Assembly (NCBI GenBank): GCA_025210675.1
Contig: JAOARU010000020.1
Span: forward strand, 1 to 48,677
Direction: 5' to 3'
From: Candidatus Altimarinota bacterium
GTDB lineage: Bacteria > Patescibacteriota > Gracilibacteria > CAIRYL01 > GCA-016699755
DNA: 48,677 bases
Shown: piece after piece, positions 1,862-42,774 of the stretch
How positions within the stretch are numbered: the first letter of the stretch is position 1
Layout: each line of letters opens with the position of its first letter
Translations under genes and position numbers: made by a program
The notes under the pieces: model-generated
Told to the model about the DNA's origin: nothing
The model's database searches: none
What the model saw: only the letters and a program-made list of their open reading frames with translations

Positions 1862-1937
1862 TGGCAGGCGGGACAGGGCTCGAACCTGCGACACTCGGTT
1901 TTGGAGACCGATGCTCTACCAACTGAGCTACCCGCCT
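1862..1937 (-). tRNA. trnW: tRNA-Trp (CCA anticodon)
   Basis: A complete 76-base cloverleaf on the minus strand. Acceptor AGGCGGG pairs with CCCGCCT, the anticodon stem TCGGT/ACCGA holds loop CTCCAAA with anticodon CCA, the T loop is TTCGAGC, the discriminator base is G as expected for tRNA-Trp, and the 3' CCA is encoded. It lies 46 bases after greA on the same strand and may be co-transcribed with dnaG-rpoD-greA. The CCA anticodon agrees with UGG-only tryptophan and with UGA as a stop. Confidence 0.97.
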
Positions 1938-1983: not shown

Positions 1984-2508
1984 TTATTTTAAGTCAACAA
2001 TCTTAAACTCAAAATCACCACCAGGTGCTTTTACTTCTGCGATATCACCTTTTTTCTTTCCTAATAAAGATTTTCCTATTGGGGATTCGTTTGATATACG
2101 AGCAGCAAATGGATCTGCCTCTGTTGAACCAACAATGGTGTATTCTGCTATTTCTTCTGTTTTTGTCAGATTTTCAATCACAACGGTTGTGCCTATGCGA
2201 ACTGTTTTTGCTTTGTGGGCTTTTTTCTCATCAATAATTTCTGCATTCTTAATCATCTTTTCAAGCTCTACAATACGCCCTTCACAGAAAGCTTGTTCGT
2301 TTTTTGCCTCTTCGTATTCTGAGTTCTCAGAAAGATCTCCGTATGATATAGCCTCTTGAAGTCTTTTTGCTACTTCATCTCTTTTTGTGTCTTTTAGGTA
2401 TTCTAGTTCGTCCCGAAGTTTTTGGAGGCCTTCTTCTGTCAAAAGCACCTTATCATCAGGCTGAATGCTTGTATTTGCTGTTTTGGTTTTTTTAACTTTT
2501 TCTGTCAT
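1984..2508 (-). CDS. greA: transcription elongation factor GreA
   Basis: 174 residues. GreA rescues backtracked RNA polymerase by stimulating transcript cleavage through the secondary channel. The N-terminal coiled coil is clear (LTEEGLQKLRDELEYLKDTKR, then ISYGDLSENSEYEEAKNEQAFCEGRI), with the conserved acidic tip DLSENSEY. The C-terminal FKBP-like domain follows (VGSTEADPFAARISNESPIGKSLLGKKKGD). About 18 extra residues precede the usual start, rich in Lys and Thr. There is no Shine-Dalgarno sequence. It follows rpoD by 15 bases and is probably the last protein gene of the dnaG-rpoD-greA unit. Confidence 0.97.
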   Translation of the reverse strand: MTEKVKKTKTANTSIQPDDKVLLTEEGLQKLRDELEYLKDTKRDEVAKRLQEAISYGDLSENSEYEEAKNEQAFCEGRIVELEKMIKNAEIIDEKKAHKAKTVRIGTTVVIENLTKTEEIAEYTIVGSTEADPFAARISNESPIGKSLLGKKKGDIAEVKAPGGDFEFKIVDLK

Positions 2509-2523
2509 GTTCTTTTAATAAAA

Positions 2524-3402
2524 TTAATTTTGTTCTTCAGATTCATTGAAAACATTTTTGAAGCTGATATTTTTCTTGACTCTTTTTGGGAGTTTTTGTG
2601 CCTCTTCTTTTGGGTCTCTTATGCGAACTGAGGCTGGATGTTCTCTAAGTTTTTGCATTACCTTTGCTTCAATCTGACGGATACGTTCACGGGTCACGCC
2701 AAATTCTCTACCTACTTCTTCTAAGGTGTGTCCTACGCCGTCTATAAGTCCAAAGCGCATTTCTATGATTTTTCTCTCTCTTGGGTTTAGAAATTTCAAG
2801 AGATCTCTGATGTTTTCTTTTATTAATTGGCGATTTGTTGCTTCTGCTGGGGATACTGCCTCTTCGTCTTCAATAAAATCAGCCAATTTTGAATCTTCTT
2901 CTGAGCCAACAGGTGCTTCAAGTGATACAATATCTTGAGAAATTTTCAAGATATGACGCACTTTTTTTTGTGGAAGATTCATTTCAGATGCAATCTCTTC
3001 TACTGTTGGATCACGGCCAAGCTCTTGCATTAATCTACGTTGTGTATGAGTCAGTTTGTTAATAGTCTCAACCATATGCACAGGGATACGAATAGTACGT
3101 GCCTGATCTGCAATAGCTCTTGTAATAGCTTGTCTAATCCACCAGGTAGCGTATGTTGAAAATTTAAATCCTCTATTTGGGTCGAATTTTTCAACTGCTC
3201 TAAATAAGCCAATATTTCCTTCTTGGATTAAGTCCAAAAAAGAAAGTCCTCTACCAATGTATTTCTTGGCTATCGATACCACAAGCCTCAAGTTGGCTTC
3301 TGCAAGATGCTGTTTGGCTTTTGCGTCTCCTTTTGCGATTTTTTTGGCTAGGCGAATCTCTTCATCAGCAGAGAGAAGTCCTGTCCTGCCTATCTCTGAT
3401 AG
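2524..3402 (-). CDS. rpoD: primary sigma factor RpoD, regions 1.2-4 (downstream of an in-frame stop)
   Basis: This is the larger part of the housekeeping sigma-70 factor, in the same frame as the N-terminal part at 3403-3843. It holds the rest of region 1.2 ([21 protein letters not shown]), region 2 ([57 protein letters not shown], about 3133-3305), region 3 and the region 4 helix-turn-helix ([22 protein letters not shown]). No ATG start occurs between the stop at 3403-3405 and region 2. The first plausible restart is a TTG at 3291, which would remove region 1.2 and the start of region 2. As one reading frame the gene would give about 439 residues, normal for RpoD. The gene is probably expressed whole and the stop is a sequence error, a population variant or a recoded site. 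Confidence 0.9.
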
Positions 3403-3405
3403 TTA
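3403..3405 (-). other. rpoD: in-frame TAA inside rpoD at a conserved tyrosine position
   Basis: Minus-strand codons read [18 protein letters not shown]. In RpoD proteins the motif is DPVRMY(L/M)REIG, so TAA sits exactly where Tyr (TAT or TAC) is expected. The frame continues open on both sides. One base change (TAA to TAT or TAC) restores the gene. Confidence 0.9.
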
Positions 3406-3843
3406 CATTCTCACTGAGTCGTTTGCTATTTCTGATAAATCCAAGCCTGTTTTTGCATCATCTTCTATTTCATCTATCTCTTCTCTTTCAATTTCATCGA
3501 GTTCTTCGTCCATTGCTGCCTCGTCCATGTCTGCTTTTTCAAGCATTTTCATAAGCGGGTCTTTTTTTGATGATTTTTTGCCGCCTGTTTCTTCTTCTTT
3601 TTTCTTTTCCCAAATTAAAGCGTCCTTCATGTCTACAATCTCCACTCCTATGTTCATAAAGAGCGCAAATGCATCATCAAGTAGCATTAGGTCATTTTCT
3701 GCTTCTGGAAAAGCTTTAACTAATTCTTGCTGGGTTACATAACCCTGTTCACGCCCTTTTTTGACGAGTTCACGGACAGCCTCTGGGAACTTTTCAAGTT
3801 CTTCTACACTTGGTTGCCTGATAAATATTTTACTTTTAGCCAT
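3406..3843 (-). CDS. rpoD: primary sigma factor RpoD, N-terminal part (region 1.1 and acidic linker)
   Basis: 146 residues, starting with the ATG immediately after the dnaG stop codon. Residues about 15-70 are a region 1.1-like helical domain (EAVRELVKKGREQGYVTQQELVKAFP). It is followed by a lysine-rich then very acidic linker (MDEEL...EREEIDEIEDD), and ends in region 1.2 with DLSEIANDSVRM before the TAA at 3403-3405. Alone this fragment would have no core-binding or promoter-binding domain. Region 1.1 normally blocks free sigma from DNA. The junction with dnaG is directly adjacent, so translation is probably coupled. Confidence 0.88.
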
Positions 3844-5562
3844 TTAAAGATTTTTTCTAAGATCTGTTAATTGTTTTATCTTGAGGAGGATATTTTTTTG
3901 TTCTTGTGGAGATGCGCTCTTCAAATCATATGTAAGCTCTTTCTGTGTTCTTATAATGTTTGCTTCGTTGATATTTTTTATTATCTTCTCTAGCTCTTTA
4001 TTTCTAAGGATTTCTGGAATTTTGTCAAGTCTTTCTTCTGCATATATATTTAGAAGGGTAAGTTTTTTGGCTTCATCATCAGACAAAAATCCCTTTAAAC
4101 TTTTTAAGCCAAAATAGCCCACCTCATTATAAACATCTTTTATTTGTTTGAAAATACTTTTTTCAGGAAAATTTGATAAAATGCTTTCAATAAGCCTTTT
4201 TTTGACAATTTCATAAAATTCAGGCTCAGCCAAGATAACTCCCAGTAAATATTGTTCTTGCGTATGGGTGTCTTTGTATGTGCTTTTTGGGTTTTCTTGA
4301 TTGATGGGTTTTTGGGTTTTTGAATTCAATTCCGACTTGATAATCTGAGCAGAGGTAAATATTTTTTCTGCTATTAGATTGCAAAATTCATCTTTTTCCA
4401 AATGTCCCGGAAAAAGCTCTACAAAGGGCTTTAGATTTTCTATGATCTTGCGTTTATTGTCTGATTTTTTAATATCAAGACTGCCTATTGCATCATCTAT
4501 AAGGAATTCTATAACTGATTTTTTATTTTCAATGATATTGGCAAATTCAGCCGGGTTTCTCCTGAGAAGATCGTCTGGGTCTTCGTCCTTGTTCATCAGG
4601 GCTACATACACATTTGCGCCATTTGATATAGTTCTCTCAAGTGCCCTCTTGGTCGCAGAAATGCCAGCTGCATCGCCATCAAGTGCAAATACTATGTTTT
4701 TTGAAAAACGCATAATTTGCTTCACATGATTATCTGTAAATGCAGTTCCACTGCATGCAACGGTATTTAAAAATCCTTTATCATAGCAAGAAAGTACATC
4801 AAATTGACCCTCTACAACTATGCAGTGATCTTTTTTGCGAATCTCTTCCTTGGCAAAATTAAGCCCGTAGAGAAGCTCTGATTTTTTAAAAAGTATGGTA
4901 TCAGGTGAGTTTAGATATTTTGGCTGTCCGTCACCTAAAGCTCTCCCCGAAAAACCAACAGGTGTGCCTGTTCTGGAAAATATAGGGAAAACAATACGAT
5001 TTACAAATTTGTCTCTATTGCCTTCAGGAATTATAAGTCCTGCTTCTAGCATCTCTTTGTGTGAGAATCCTTTTTCTAAGAGGTATTTTTCCATTTCATG
5101 TCCCATTTTAAAGGCAAATCCAAGACGAAATTTGCCGATAGTCTGATCTGATATTTCTCGTTTTTTGACCTCATCTATTGCGTTTCTGTTGATTTTGAAA
5201 TTGTTTTCAAATTTTTCAGTTGCAATCTCCATGAGATCAATTAGGCGATCTTTTTTTTCTTTATTTTTAGAGGTAAAGGCGTCTTGTTTTATCTCTATGT
5301 GCGCTTTTTCGGCTAGGAGTTTTACTGCCTCCTGAAAACTAATATTCTCAATCTGCTGAACAAAAGAAAAAATATCTCCACCACTCTGACAAGCAAAGCA
5401 CCAAGCAAGCCCCTTGTCCTCACTAACAACAAGTGAAGGTCTGGTATCTTGATGAAAAGGACACACGCCTTTTAGATTCTTGCCTGCTGGTCTTAGTTGA
5501 ACATAATCAGATACAACATCTACTATGCTTAGCCGGGATTTGATCTCTTCTACTATATCCAT
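3844..5562 (-). CDS. dnaG: DNA primase DnaG
   Basis: 572 residues, normal length. It makes RNA primers at the replication fork. The N-terminal CHC2 zinc domain has ligands Cys34, His37, Cys55 and Cys58 (CPFH...CFAC). The catalytic core includes FSGRALGDGQPKYLNSPDT (about 204-222), and the TOPRIM domain has VVEGQFDVLS with Glu251 and the metal-binding FALDGDAAG with Asp295 and Asp297. The C-terminal part (about 420-572) is helical and presumably binds DnaB. The gene begins the dnaG-rpoD-greA cluster, the classical macromolecular-synthesis arrangement without rpsU. Only a weak AAGG precedes the start. Confidence 0.98.
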   Translation of the reverse strand: MDIVEEIKSRLSIVDVVSDYVQLRPAGKNLKGVCPFHQDTRPSLVVSEDKGLAWCFACQSGGDIFSFVQQIENISFQEAVKLLAEKAHIEIKQDAFTSKNKEKKDRLIDLMEIATEKFENNFKINRNAIDEVKKREISDQTIGKFRLGFAFKMGHEMEKYLLEKGFSHKEMLEAGLIIPEGNRDKFVNRIVFPIFSRTGTPVGFSGRALGDGQPKYLNSPDTILFKKSELLYGLNFAKEEIRKKDHCIVVEGQFDVLSCYDKGFLNTVACSGTAFTDNHVKQIMRFSKNIVFALDGDAAGISATKRALERTISNGANVYVALMNKDEDPDDLLRRNPAEFANIIENKKSVIEFLIDDAIGSLDIKKSDNKRKIIENLKPFVELFPGHLEKDEFCNLIAEKIFTSAQIIKSELNSKTQKPINQENPKSTYKDTHTQEQYLLGVILAEPEFYEIVKKRLIESILSNFPEKSIFKQIKDVYNEVGYFGLKSLKGFLSDDEAKKLTLLNIYAEERLDKIPEILRNKELEKIIKNINEANIIRTQKELTYDLKSASPQEQKNILLKIKQLTDLRKNL

Positions 5563-22757: not shown

Positions 22758-23114
22758 TTAAATATTATCAATTTGCTGTTCAATTAAACGAAGCTCTTTG
22801 GCTTCTTCTTTTTGATCTTGCTTTTTGTAAATCTCAAAAGACTCCTTTTCGTAATTGTCACTAAGTGTTTTTATTTCTTGCATTAGGCTTGGATTTTCTT
22901 TGGCAATTTTCTCAAAAACATACATTTGTTCATCAAATGCCTTGTCTAGTTCTCTATAAAGACCATCACATTCCTGATCACTCATTGTAGGCAGTTTTTC
23001 AACTATTGTTCTTTGCACACTTTCTTCTAATAAAAAAATAGAAAAAAACCTTTTAAGTACTTTTTGTTGCTTCTCTGTCAATTTGCCATTTTCTTGAATA
23101 AGCATATTGCTCAT
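22758..23114 (-). CDS. small helical protein, unknown function
   Basis: 118 residues from the ATG at 23114. An earlier in-frame start would lie inside the terminator hairpin at 23121-23150 and is rejected. The protein is predicted all-helical (LTEKQQKVLKRFFSIFLLEESVQRTIVEKLPTMSDQECDGLYREL...) with a charged C-terminus. Its MSDxE/Q pattern and layout recall the 123-residue protein at 7022-7393, but homology cannot be claimed. Confidence 0.65.
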   Translation of the reverse strand: MSNMLIQENGKLTEKQQKVLKRFFSIFLLEESVQRTIVEKLPTMSDQECDGLYRELDKAFDEQMYVFEKIAKENPSLMQEIKTLSDNYEKESFEIYKKQDQKEEAKELRLIEQQIDNI

Positions 23115-23120
23115 AAAATT

Positions 23121-23150
23121 AAAAACTCTGGTTATTATACCAGAGTTTTT
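23121..23150. terminator. bidirectional terminator after rpsC
   Basis: A 12-bp perfect stem AAAAACTCTGGT (23121-23132) with ACCAGAGTTTTT (23139-23150) and a six-base loop gives T runs on both strands. It ends the rplV-rpsC transcript on the minus strand. Confidence 0.85.
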
Positions 23151-23174
23151 ATAAATAATCAAAGTATAAATATG

Positions 23175-33879: not shown

Positions 33880-34708
33880 AGCCCAAGATATCCATAATCT
33901 AGCAAAAAAACTAATCAGAGAAGCAAGTTTTATACTGCCAGAGGAAGTAAGAAGTAAGCTTGATGAATTAAATAAAAAAGAGCAAAACACTTTGTCTAAA
34001 AAAGCGCTCTCTGAAATAACTGAAAATTATAAAATCGCAGAACAAGAAAGTTTGCCACTATGTCAGGATACTGGTTGTGCTTGTTTTTTTATTAAAATGG
34101 GGCATCAGGTGGAGCTAGAAGAAGTACTAGAAATCACCCTAAACAAAGCCACATCTGAGGCTTATGCAGAATACTATCTCAGAAAATCAATTTGTGAAAA
34201 ACCTCTCTTTAAAAGGGTTAATACAGGAGACAATACACCCTGCTTCGTGCATATCGAACAAGTAGAGGGTGATCAGTTTGAAATCGTTTTTTTGCCAAAA
34301 GGAGGAGGTGCAGAAAACAAAAGCAGATTCACAATGTTAGCCCCATCAAAAGGCGTTCAGGGGGTAATGGAGTTTATCAGAGAAACGCTTGAGTTGGCTG
34401 GCGGTAGTGCTTGTCCTCCTTTTTTGGTTGGAGTCGGGGTTGGTGGCATGTTTGATACAGTTGGATCACTCGCTAAAAAAGCCATAATCAGAGGAATCGG
34501 CACAGACAATCTGGATAGTGATTTTGCAAAACTAGAACAAGATATAAAAAAAGACCTATCTTCATTAAAAATGGGAGCAATGGGACTAGGGGGCAATGAG
34601 ACCATACTTGATTTAAATATAGAATACTCACCTTGCCATATTGCATCGCTTCCAGTTGCAGTAAATATCCAGTGTCATTCAGCTCGTATTAGCAAAGGAT
34701 CTCTTTAA
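33866..34708 (+). CDS. class I fumarate hydratase, alpha subunit
   Basis: 280 residues of the two-subunit iron-sulfur fumarase/tartrate dehydratase alpha chain. It interconverts fumarate and malate. Three cysteines fit the 4Fe-4S cluster ligands: Cys66 (LPLCQDTG), Cys183 (GGSACPPFLVGVGVGG) and Cys270 (NIQCHSARISKG). PKGGGAENKSRFTMLAPSKG is also typical. The beta subunit, which normally follows, is not downstream; a convergent gene overlaps its end. The beta gene must be elsewhere or missing. Confidence 0.93.
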   Translation: MRKIKAQDIHNLAKKLIREASFILPEEVRSKLDELNKKEQNTLSKKALSEITENYKIAEQESLPLCQDTGCACFFIKMGHQVELEEVLEITLNKATSEAYAEYYLRKSICEKPLFKRVNTGDNTPCFVHIEQVEGDQFEIVFLPKGGGAENKSRFTMLAPSKGVQGVMEFIRETLELAGGSACPPFLVGVGVGGMFDTVGSLAKKAIIRGIGTDNLDSDFAKLEQDIKKDLSSLKMGAMGLGGNETILDLNIEYSPCHIASLPVAVNIQCHSARISKGSL

Positions 34709-37700
34709 GCTGCCATGTAAGGATTGCCGCCGCTTTCTTTAACGTCATCTCTACCTCCAATAGACCAATCCCATTTTCTAAATTTCTGACCTTTGTGGTC
34801 ATCTGCGTACAGCTTTACGCATTTATCTACTGAAGCCTGCAATCTATCAGGATCATGCTCAAATAATCTTTGTGTAAAGGTATGAATAAACTCATAATAC
34901 CAATCAATATTAGCGGGATTACTTCCCTCTGGGATATCATTTATGTCTTTTTTTGTAAGTTTACCATTTTCGTCTATGCTTTCTGGGTCATAAAGAGTAA
35001 ACCAAAAATCATTTTCTAAGATATTTTTTAATTTATCAAAATCTGGCTTTTTTGAAAATAATTCATTAAAAAATTCAGGACAAGCAGCACGTGTAATCTC
35101 CCTTAGATGCTCTGCTGTTTGACCAGTAGATAATCCTGCACCATAACCATCAGCCCTAGGAGGGTAGTTTATATCATCAGCTGAAAATCTAAACAGCTTA
35201 TAGTCTCCTTTTTTGACCTTATTGAATAGGATGCCTTCAAGATTCATGGCGTACCCCATCTGTCTCGCAAACTCTTCCTTTAGATCATCATATGATATGT
35301 CTTCTTTGTGGCGAGCCACACTTGTAAAATGATGCAATATGCCATTTAGAGCATTTGGATAAGCAGTAGCTTGATACTTTGGTGTACCATCTATCTTGCT
35401 AGTAATATTGGATGCCATACTTGTACTTCCTATGGCTGCAATCATCTGCATCCAGTCATGATCCCATTTAGCACTCATCTGACCCGCAGATTTGAATGTG
35501 CGTTCATAGACTGATTTTTCTGTCATCCAGTTTACATGAAACCACTCTATATATTCACTTGGCACACTACCATCAGAGGTTTCGAACATGGCTCCCCATT
35601 TACACCATTCTTCAATTGTTGGTTTTTTCTTGTCTATTAGCTCAAGAGGTGGAACATTATTGGATTGTCCAGCAAAAACAACCGGCCTCTCAGGAGACAA
35701 GATCCCCTCATAAACACCCTGTATTAAGTAATAAAGCATTGTCTCTACGTCCATTTTTCCCGCCTCAATCGCATAATCTAAAAACATCTCATAACGATGA
35801 GGGTCAACTTTTTTGCCTTTTTTGGTGTCTGTAAGCATTTTTTTAACGTGATTTGTAAGATAATTTTGACAATTAATAGCATCACGCTTGTATTCTGATT
35901 TTTTAGAATCAAGATTTGAATTATTTAACCTTTCCCATTCTGAAAAAGTATCACCATCATAAAGAGATGTGATTACTTTATTTAACTTTTGATAAAGCAC
36001 AACTAGGTCATCTCCATCACTCGGACGAAAACAAACCGACGACTGCAGCCTATGAAAAGCACCCCAAAGCCTCTCATCTCTCCAGTTAATACGCCCTATA
36101 TTGGCTAATTGACCAAGGCAAGCTTTTAGTTCATCTTTGTTATTGGTTTTTTCAATTACATCATAGATTTGCCATGCGTCTTTATTGCTAAGTGCATCTT
36201 CATATTTTGAAACCTCTTCTTTTTCTGCGGACTCAGAAAGAAGGTCGTATTCAGAGGCGAGCTGAGCATTAATACCATCAAACACGGCCGAACCAACTGC
36301 ACCTGCACGAGCCTTTGAGTTTCTTTGGTGTTTTCTTTCCATGTACTCCATAAAAGTAGACCAAATAGTCTTCATATCTGCCATAGACACAAAGGTGGTC
36401 TCATTGTATAATTTCATGAAATAATTTTCGCTATTTTCACATTCTTCAGCTATACGAGCCAAAATACCGGAGCAATCATCTGCTAATTTGGTCATATCGC
36501 TATTAATATCTACAAATGTAGATTCGTCAACTTCGCCTAATTTGGCCATATCTTCAAGTTGAGCAACATAATCTTTTATCTTTGCTATAAAAATATCTCT
36601 ATCTGTGACATCTTTTGAAGCAGCAATATTTTCTAGTTTTTTGTTTAAAATTGTCTTTTTATTTTCAAAAATTGACCTTTGCTTGTTATATCTTTCTTCA
36701 GAAAGCGGGTTTTTGTTTTTAATTTCAACCCCTAAAGAGCCTTTTGCAAATTTTTGTTCAGATGAAGCAAAAAAACTATTTTTGTTCAAATGTTCACCCG
36801 CAGATGACCTAAAACTCTCATCAGTCGGAAGAGATCCTTCTAAGATAAGATCCAATTCAGATTGAGAAAAATATTGCTTGATTAATCTAATCATTGCGCC
36901 AACAGGTATAGTAACTGTATCTCCCGCAAGATAATGTGCCAAAATCTCATCAGGAAGGTCTTCTTTTGCATATATTTTTTCAAAAGCCTTTTTTTGACGC
37001 TGAAAGCTTAGGTCGTCTTTAAGTCTTGCATGAACCTCTTTATAAAAAGCCTTTGAGAGTTTTTTGTTACTCAAAAAATCAACAATATGCACTGCCTCAT
37101 GCGAAATAATATCAGAATTGTCCTGAAACGCCTCTTTTACATATAAATGAAGTTTTTTTTGTCCAAGTGTAGAATTTTTGAAATCTACAAAAGCTTTAGC
37201 TTCATGTCCGTATTTTTTTTCAAATTGCTCATTCGGCAAAACACAAAACACATCTGAACCATCAGGATTTTTGAGTCTTTTTATGAATTCAATATCAACA
37301 CTGCCCTTTAAGATAGAGTTTTTGAGGTTAATAAAATCATCTAAACATTTAGCATTTCTGTCTTCCTGGATTTCTTTGATTGAAATAGGTTTTATAGGTT
37401 TTGCAAGAGCTTCATTTTTTGATTTTATTTGATCAAAAAAATCTCTATTCTTGCCAAGTCCCTGCTCAACAGAATCCAGAGCAAGGCTAAGATCAGCCCT
37501 AAGCAATGGATCTGATTCTATAACAGTATCCAGCTCTGAGCTAGGAATCTGAGCAACATTTCTTATCGCATCTTCTGTCTCATTAATGGCTTCATTTGGA
37601 GCATTTCTCTCATTTAAAAGCTTTAATCTATCTTGAAGTGATGTTTTTAGTTCAAATATTTTTGAATTTGCATCATTTGTCTCCTGTTTGAGTTTTTTGA

Positions 37701-39321
37701 ATTTTTCAGATAAGACTTCATTTGACTCAGCAAAAAGCATACTGAGAGCTTCTGACTCATCTTTTTTAGCATCATAAAAAAGTCTCCTTAGTAATTCTGC
37801 CTGCATTCCGCTGGATTTTTTAGAGAAAAAATCTTGTAAAAATTCACTATTAGCAAATATTTCTCTCTCATTTGAATCTAATGTTTTTTCTAAAAATTGC
37901 TCATGTGATGCTAGATTTAATTTATCAAAATTTACTAGCTCATCAACCATTAAGCCGTATTCAGAAGACAGCTCCTCGGATTCATTAAAAAAAGCATCAT
38001 CAAGTTCACTAATGCCATGGGCTAACTCTTTTTTTAGTTCTTTTATGCCAATAGGCTGCCCTTGTTCATCTCGCACAGCTATATGATCCTTGAGTCCAAA
38101 TATCTCTTGAAGCTCTGAAATATCTACATCTTCATTGTGCAATAAAGATCTAGCTCCTGCTTCATGTAGGCTGCTTAGTTCTTTTTTTAATTCTTGTTTT
38201 TTTAGCTGAAATCTTGCTAGTTTTGATTTAAAATCAGCAACTCTATTGTGAATTTTTTTAGCTAATTCATACTCCTCTTCTTGTATCCATTTATTTTGAT
38301 TTAGTTTTTCTGCTATCTCTGATTCAGTTTCTGATTGCCTAATAATATCAAGCTGCTTTGATCTGATCTGTGATTTTTTTAAGTAATTTATAAAAATCTC
38401 TTTATGGTCATGTGAAAACTCCTGCTCAGATAAATATTCAATAAAATTTGAGTCTTTTAAGTTTGCGCTATCTATGAGATCCAAAGTCGCTCTATGTTCA
38501 CCAAAAACAAGTATCAAAACCTTTGTAATAAGATGATTCATATCATCAAGAATCTCTTGTGCTTGCTCAACAGAATCACTCAGGGCTTCTTTGAATTTAC
38601 GCATAGCATCTTGCTGAATCATATCAACAAAAGCTTGCTTGCTTTCATAGGTCTCTAATTGAAGTAGTTTTTTTGCTTCTTTTAAATGCTCGTCCGAAAG
38701 TACCCCAGAAATAGCGGAAATTATCTCGTCGTGTTTTTCTGCTTGAGTTTTGTTGCTTGAATCAATATCGCTAATAATCGCTGAAAGCTCCCTGGAATCA
38801 CGCATTTTGCGTGATGATTCTTCTACAAAGTCTTCATTTAGCCTAAGTCTCACCTCTTCATGTAATTCTTTTACAACTGGAAAAGCTTTTGTTTTGTTTA
38901 AAAAATCAACATCAAGCTCACTCTTTAATTCAAAACAAAAGTTTTTGTTTTTTGCCAGTGTTCTAATATGGTTAATGAATTTCGGAAAAAGAGGACTAGG
39001 AAGCTCAGAAAAGGCATAATCAAGAGGTGTGTTCATCAAAAGCTCTTTGTCATTATCTCCGATCTCTTTCTTCTTGCAAGCTGCAATTAATTCTGATTTT
39101 TCTGATTCGATATAGGCAGAAAAAGCCGCTTTTTCTTGAGGAGAAAGCCTTGTGGAATTTAGGTGTTTTTTGATTTTCTTTTTTTGAGATAAGCTTGGAG
39201 ATTTAGATGATTTCAAAAGATCTCTAAGTTCTTGTATCTCAGATTTACTTGATCTTATAAACTCAGGATTATGAGCTTTGTTAAAGATTAGCCTCTGATG
39301 TAAGAAAAAATCCCCTATCAT
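34705..39321 (-). CDS. giant 1538-residue protein with an internal HEAVH zinc-metalloprotease motif
   Basis: The longest gene here. There is no signal peptide and no membrane helix visible. Residues 1 to about 650 are highly charged, mainly helical and coiled-coil-like. At 741-745 the motif HEAVH occurs in DIISHEAVHIVDFLSNKKL, a HExxH zinc site, with Glu792 (LPDEILAHYL) a candidate third ligand as in gluzincins. Residues about 850-1538 contain further helical regions, a Trp-rich stretch (KWDHDWMQMIAAIGSTSMASN) and end with GGRDDVKESGGNPYMAA. I know no family for the whole protein. It stands alone behind its own promoter and ends convergently with the fumarase gene. A cytoplasmic or non-classically exported protease, possibly for contact with a host, is only inference. 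Confidence 0.8.
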   Translation of the reverse strand: MIGDFFLHQRLIFNKAHNPEFIRSSKSEIQELRDLLKSSKSPSLSQKKKIKKHLNSTRLSPQEKAAFSAYIESEKSELIAACKKKEIGDNDKELLMNTPLDYAFSELPSPLFPKFINHIRTLAKNKNFCFELKSELDVDFLNKTKAFPVVKELHEEVRLRLNEDFVEESSRKMRDSRELSAIISDIDSSNKTQAEKHDEIISAISGVLSDEHLKEAKKLLQLETYESKQAFVDMIQQDAMRKFKEALSDSVEQAQEILDDMNHLITKVLILVFGEHRATLDLIDSANLKDSNFIEYLSEQEFSHDHKEIFINYLKKSQIRSKQLDIIRQSETESEIAEKLNQNKWIQEEEYELAKKIHNRVADFKSKLARFQLKKQELKKELSSLHEAGARSLLHNEDVDISELQEIFGLKDHIAVRDEQGQPIGIKELKKELAHGISELDDAFFNESEELSSEYGLMVDELVNFDKLNLASHEQFLEKTLDSNEREIFANSEFLQDFFSKKSSGMQAELLRRLFYDAKKDESEALSMLFAESNEVLSEKFKKLKQETNDANSKIFELKTSLQDRLKLLNERNAPNEAINETEDAIRNVAQIPSSELDTVIESDPLLRADLSLALDSVEQGLGKNRDFFDQIKSKNEALAKPIKPISIKEIQEDRNAKCLDDFINLKNSILKGSVDIEFIKRLKNPDGSDVFCVLPNEQFEKKYGHEAKAFVDFKNSTLGQKKLHLYVKEAFQDNSDIISHEAVHIVDFLSNKKLSKAFYKEVHARLKDDLSFQRQKKAFEKIYAKEDLPDEILAHYLAGDTVTIPVGAMIRLIKQYFSQSELDLILEGSLPTDESFRSSAGEHLNKNSFFASSEQKFAKGSLGVEIKNKNPLSEERYNKQRSIFENKKTILNKKLENIAASKDVTDRDIFIAKIKDYVAQLEDMAKLGEVDESTFVDINSDMTKLADDCSGILARIAEECENSENYFMKLYNETTFVSMADMKTIWSTFMEYMERKHQRNSKARAGAVGSAVFDGINAQLASEYDLLSESAEKEEVSKYEDALSNKDAWQIYDVIEKTNNKDELKACLGQLANIGRINWRDERLWGAFHRLQSSVCFRPSDGDDLVVLYQKLNKVITSLYDGDTFSEWERLNNSNLDSKKSEYKRDAINCQNYLTNHVKKMLTDTKKGKKVDPHRYEMFLDYAIEAGKMDVETMLYYLIQGVYEGILSPERPVVFAGQSNNVPPLELIDKKKPTIEEWCKWGAMFETSDGSVPSEYIEWFHVNWMTEKSVYERTFKSAGQMSAKWDHDWMQMIAAIGSTSMASNITSKIDGTPKYQATAYPNALNGILHHFTSVARHKEDISYDDLKEEFARQMGYAMNLEGILFNKVKKGDYKLFRFSADDINYPPRADGYGAGLSTGQTAEHLREITRAACPEFFNELFSKKPDFDKLKNILENDFWFTLYDPESIDENGKLTKKDINDIPEGSNPANIDWYYEFIHTFTQRLFEHDPDRLQASVDKCVKLYADDHKGQKFRKWDWSIGGRDDVKESGGNPYMAA

Positions 39322-39555: not shown

Positions 39556-39673
39556 TTCTTGGCATCGACCTACTCTCGCACTGCTGAACAGCACTACCAT
39601 TGGCGCTGAAAGGCTTAACTACTGTGTTCGAAATGGGAACAGGTGTACCCCTTTCGCTACAGACACCAAGAAT
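39556..39673 (-). rRNA. rrf: 5S ribosomal RNA
   Basis: About 118 bases on the minus strand. The core GGGTACACCTGTTCCCATTT, CGAACACAGTAGTTAAGCCT and the end GCGAGAGTAGGTCGATGCC are typical 5S sequences, and the first and last bases pair (ATTCTTGG with CCAAGAAT). The pairing continues beyond the mature ends to 39551-39562 and 39666-39677, giving a 12-bp processing stem. Confidence 0.95.
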
Positions 39674-39703
39674 ATTGAACTCAATCAGTATAGTAATTTC
39701 CGT

Positions 39704-39724
39704 AGAATACACGTCAAACAAGGT
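39704..39724 (-). other. 23S processing stem, 3' arm
   Basis: Twenty-one bases complementary, with three G-U pairs, to the 5' arm at 42776-42796. Together they close a long stem around the 23S rRNA, the expected substrate for RNase III-type processing. Confidence 0.75.
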
Positions 39725-39762
39725 GTATAAACGTATTGCATAAACACAAAGGTTTATAACAA

Positions 39763-42774
<3,012 letters not shown>

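Follow-up and report, generated by a model that had tools for sequence, protein, structure and literature searches.

How does a bacterium make its primary sigma factor when the rpoD gene carries an in-frame stop codon? The question is raised by contig JAOARU010000020.1 of the Candidatus Altimarinota assembly GCA_025210675.1, positions 1 to 48,677 of which are the window analysed here. A sequence-only reading of this window had offered four answers for a TAA found inside rpoD: a base error, a minority variant, a suppressed or read-through codon, or a split sigma factor. We have examined the gene, its relatives and the rest of the genome, and a base or strain-mixture error fits best. The suppression and split-sigma options found no support beyond the fact that the stop falls on a tyrosine codon.

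The interrupted rpoD frame

Translation of positions 2400-3960 on the minus strand gave one frame from an ATG at 3843 to a terminal TAA at 2526-2524, with a sole internal stop at 3405-3403, so the frame is indeed open apart from a single TAA, as had been read. The features concerned are the following:

2524..3843, minus strand: rpoD, primary sigma factor frame, 439 codons plus its own TAA, with one interruption (translation, Pfam, NCBIfam)
3403..3405, minus strand: in-frame TAA, codon 147 of 439, in region 1.2, tyrosine in relatives (translation and comparison with relatives)
3406..3843, minus strand: upstream piece, 146 codons, region 1.1 and the start of region 1.2 (Sigma70_r1_1, E 1.9e-11)
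2524..3402, minus strand: downstream piece, 292 codons plus stop, the remaining region 1.2 and regions 2-4 (Pfam)
3844..5562, minus strand: dnaG (primase), directly upstream of rpoD, its TAA abutting the rpoD ATG
1984..2508, minus strand: greA/greB-type elongation factor, directly downstream of rpoD (Pfam)
1862..1937, minus strand: tRNA-Trp (CCA), further downstream of rpoD, with an anticodon that makes it no suppressor

Sigma-70 regions 1.1, 1.2, 2, 3 and 4 follow one another in order across the two pieces, all above the Pfam cut-off, and the protein exceeds the NCBIfam RpoD_Cterm cut-off (372 bits vs 354). The identification of the gene as the primary sigma factor is therefore upheld by translation and Pfam. 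What departs from the continuous frame of such a factor is the one TAA at 3403-3405, which lies between DSVRM and [10 protein letters not shown]. The stop was said to cut region 1.2, and it does so: region 1.1 is upstream and the rest of region 1.2 is downstream, where the Pfam match begins at profile position 7. The local DNA, ATG TAA CTA, holds no homopolymer and requires no frameshift, and the base directly 3' of the TAA is a C. Frameshifting or hopping was rejected, since the frame is identical on both sides of a single stop.

Elsewhere in the window, always on the minus strand, we noted a 1538-aa open frame at 34705-39321 for which Pfam gave no match at E 0.001, 23S and 5S rRNA genes at 39557-42773, with no 16S rRNA reported by Rfam in the contig, and a 134-aa frame at 22758-23162 that has no Pfam match and lies directly after rpsC (S3) in the same frame.

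Relatives, restart sites and other sigma factors

A class-wide search with rpoD covered 353 genomes, 328 of them matching, and we used the best 150 rows. Base by base and on both strands, 49 other class genomes were compared at the site. All of them have tyrosine (34 TAT and 15 TAC), which confirms the conserved tyrosine proposed in the sequence-only reading; none has TAA, and conservation of a stop at this position, as looked for in programmed read-through, was found in 0 of the 49. Regarding the genome_contigs loci, retrieved with a pattern that left the tested site free, 77 of 80 show tyrosine (TAT or TAC) and the other three misfit the search pattern; the best relatives there are labelled Peregrinibacteria and Peribacteria. 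In G001, the only other genome of the family in the comparison, the site is a tyrosine codon rather than a stop, and the identity is 71%. The genome of the window is the sole representative of its genus in the comparison.

The two pieces of rpoD are otherwise intact and open, so one may picture a split sigma, in which region 1.1 would form an N-terminal protein and regions 2-4 a second one, started inside rpoD. The restart sites speak against this arrangement. In-frame starts after the stop are a TTG at 38 codons (at 3291), a GTG at 41 and an ATG at 110, and Pfam places region 2 at residues 33-103 of the downstream piece. The earliest restart therefore begins inside region 2, five residues into the Sigma70_r2 match, and the first ATG lies past that region, so the earlier observation that no ATG restart precedes region 2 stands. 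Besides, the interval that would be skipped before the TTG still encodes a normal RpoD segment (mean identity of 68% to the 49 relatives), which agrees either with uninterrupted translation or with a change of very recent date, and none of the 49 relatives examined is split at the same place. Given these starts, we regard a split sigma as extremely improbable.

According to a DNA search of the assembly, rpoD is present as a single copy, with no second one found. A protein search of the genome with RpoD returned rpoD and one region-4-like match only. Four genes carry Sigma70_r2, and the three besides rpoD occupy open frames of 189-200 codons; they appear to be of the ECF type and are shorter than a primary sigma. 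We also considered a backup primary sigma, since a further sigma of 282 aa exists in G001, and rejected it because the RpoD query matched nothing comparable in the genome of the window. rpoD is this genome's only primary-type sigma.

The region-4-like match lies in L003 (G000:C6:47366-50572, where G000 is the genome of the window), at 1414-2565, where the N-terminal part of a protein of ~383 aa is similar to sigma region 4 (36% identity over 69 aa). This protein is not a full sigma factor and has a counterpart match in G001 (L007).

From the established role of the primary sigma, an rpoD that is incompletely translated is expected to be lethal, and this favours an error in the record. It also bears on the minority-variant option in the form of a real nonsense mutation carried by part of the population, in dead or dying cells, and picked as the consensus. 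A draft in 64 contigs would hide such mixtures. However, with only one primary sigma in the genome, a null allele of its gene would not be expected to reach a high frequency, and no second rpoD copy was found in the assembly; we consider this origin unlikely.

Stops and decoding machinery in the genome

The assembly comprises 982,222 bases and is listed as 99.78% complete. We built a codon-usage score from 196 long frames and scanned 411,343 bases (41.9% of the genome, window included), taking as candidates every stop flanked on each side by 40 open codons (431 in all). By two-sided score, the rpoD TAA ranks first of the 431, with the nearest start 38 codons on. Apart from it, only L129:8483 reaches a score of 2 without a start inside 10 codons, and it was rejected as a second interruption because it reads as an antisense shadow. 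Seven further top-40 sites, once translated, could be put down to the end of a gene, to a junction between two genes or to shadows; the inspected sites include what we take, from reading the sequence, to be the end of a purine-synthesis-type enzyme, the end of a recombinase and a trpE-trpG-type junction where the next start comes 3 codons after the stop. Sites L135:8429 and L128:2989 also score above 2, with starts 4 and 8 codons on. In the scanned 411 kb (42% of the genome), the rpoD TAA is the only convincing interruption, with a scan in which ~40% of interior positions reach a score of 2 without a start inside 10 codons.

Of the 196 long frames, 119 close with TAA, 49 with TGA and 28 with TAG, so TAA is a working stop. 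With one convincing site in 411 kb and TAA closing 119 of 196 long frames, genome-wide recoding or reassignment of a stop codon was discarded. No other strain turned up when viral_contigs was searched for exact 30-base matches.

Two release-factor genes of the RF-1 family are present, fitting RF1 and RF2. An Rfam search found 32 tRNA genes, and ARAGORN read the anticodons of all of them; 32 of 32 carry ordinary anticodons. Running ARAGORN on 20 longer stretches added no tRNA genes. Genes for Phe and Glu tRNAs are absent from the 32 listed, though the genome is given as 99.78% complete, so the list is incomplete, with some tRNAs either overlooked or located in gaps. The search for a suppressor tRNA suggested in the sequence-only reading thus returned no UUA anticodon, which would read UAA, among the 32 genes of a list that lacks Phe and Glu. 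The tRNA-Tyr has anticodon GUA and, by reading of its sequence, a normal 5-bp anticodon stem. As for a stable RNA element 3' of the internal TAA, the sequence there folds no better than its shuffles (z -0.16).

These data bear on the possibility that the UAA is real and read through, with tyrosine inserted by the near-cognate tRNA-Tyr (GUA) or by an unseen suppressor, in a way that would limit the amount of sigma. The stop sits exactly at the tyrosine codon and is followed by a C. In Vibrio cholerae, queuosine loss in tRNAs with GUN anticodons is reported to raise UAA read-through (PMC11703503). Against this stand the ordinary anticodons of all the tRNA genes found (in a list without Phe and Glu), the two release-factor genes, the normal anticodon stem of tRNA-Tyr, the shuffle-like folding after the stop and the absence of the stop from all 49 relatives examined. 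Moreover, with TAA as the main stop of the genome, a suppressor acting generally would lengthen the majority of proteins. Taken with these observations, read-through is very unlikely, and its narrower form, in which the UAA is real and fixed and the amount of the only primary sigma is governed by how often ordinary tRNA-Tyr reads it, is slightly less probable still. Were tRNA-Tyr read-through true, translation fidelity would control global transcription; and a real TAA would make an essential gene dependent on UAA read-through, which would be remarkable.

Origin of the TAA and comparison with known systems

In order to contextualize the lone stop, we looked at how often mid-gene stops occur in the class. 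Among the best 150 rpoD rows, 31 contain a stop, 30 of which were located (G296 is the one outside these 30). In 28 of the located rows the stop is at or past the C-terminal end, and these were dismissed as companions; a mid-gene stop is found only in the genome of the window and in G241. The rpoD of G241 (L189; G241:C5:2900-4250) is interrupted once, by an in-frame TAG; this falls at query position 315, a glutamate in the protein of the window's genome, and is likely another lone error. As a control we used a 600-residue SecA core from the same genome as the window. With 341 class genomes searched, 320 matched and the best 150 used, a stop was found in 0 of 150 rows. Pooling 1 of 149 other rpoD genes with 0 of 150 SecA cores gives a background of ~1 mid-gene stop per 140,000 codons (the genome of the window excluded), an estimate from ranges that rests on one event. 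A genome of this size holds close to 300,000 codons by estimate, and at such a rate one or two lone stops per genome would be ordinary.

The isolation of the interruption, the use of TAA as the commonest stop and the lone stop of G241 together make a base (or strain-mixture) error the best fit. The TAA is very probably a single wrong consensus base, which would stem either from a mistake in sequencing or assembly or from a base of a minority or of mixed strains that entered the draft consensus, and we infer that reads would not support it. In living cells, the primary sigma factor would then be an unbroken protein bearing tyrosine at codon 147. An error of the record, rather than a new decoding of the code, is the most likely account.

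One could argue that a random error would seldom strike a tyrosine codon. Elsewhere in the rpoD frame, only 6 of the 194 single-base changes that create a stop hit tyrosine codons, which makes the coincidence roughly 1-in-25 to 1-in-30 and mildly favours a reading with tyrosine insertion over an error. This is outweighed, in our judgement, by the low prior of read-through and the absence of other support for it.

Caution is thus advised with a draft genome that is alone in its genus: even its essential genes may contain an isolated stop, from which gene callers will report two false genes. Literature searches returned nothing, judged by titles, on rpoD premature stops in metagenome-assembled genomes, and no match on premature stop codons as assembly errors in such genomes or on the rpoD sigma factor in the Candidate Phyla Radiation.

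Compared with RpoD/SigA, the group 1 sigma-70 factors, the protein is alike in its complete and ordered regions and in its RpoD_Cterm score above the cut-off, and differs in the one in-frame TAA in region 1.2. It shares with the rpoD of G241, from the same class, a single mid-gene stop in an otherwise normal gene, with TAG at residue 315 there and TAA at codon 147 here. Single-base nonsense errors occur in draft and metagenome assemblies, and the present case resembles them as a lone stop, with no frameshift, in an essential gene that is otherwise intact and whose stop is unshared by the relatives examined; it differs in that the error is deduced here from the consensus sequence and not from reads. 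Finally, recoding of UGA to glycine occurs in Gracilibacteria/Absconditabacteria. The two cases have in common that a stop codon lies within genes in candidate-phylum bacteria. PMC13092985 mentions 53 genomes of Gracilibacteria/Absconditabacteria with this recoding, whereas here a single UAA in one gene is concerned, in a genome where TAA, TGA and TAG all end long frames.
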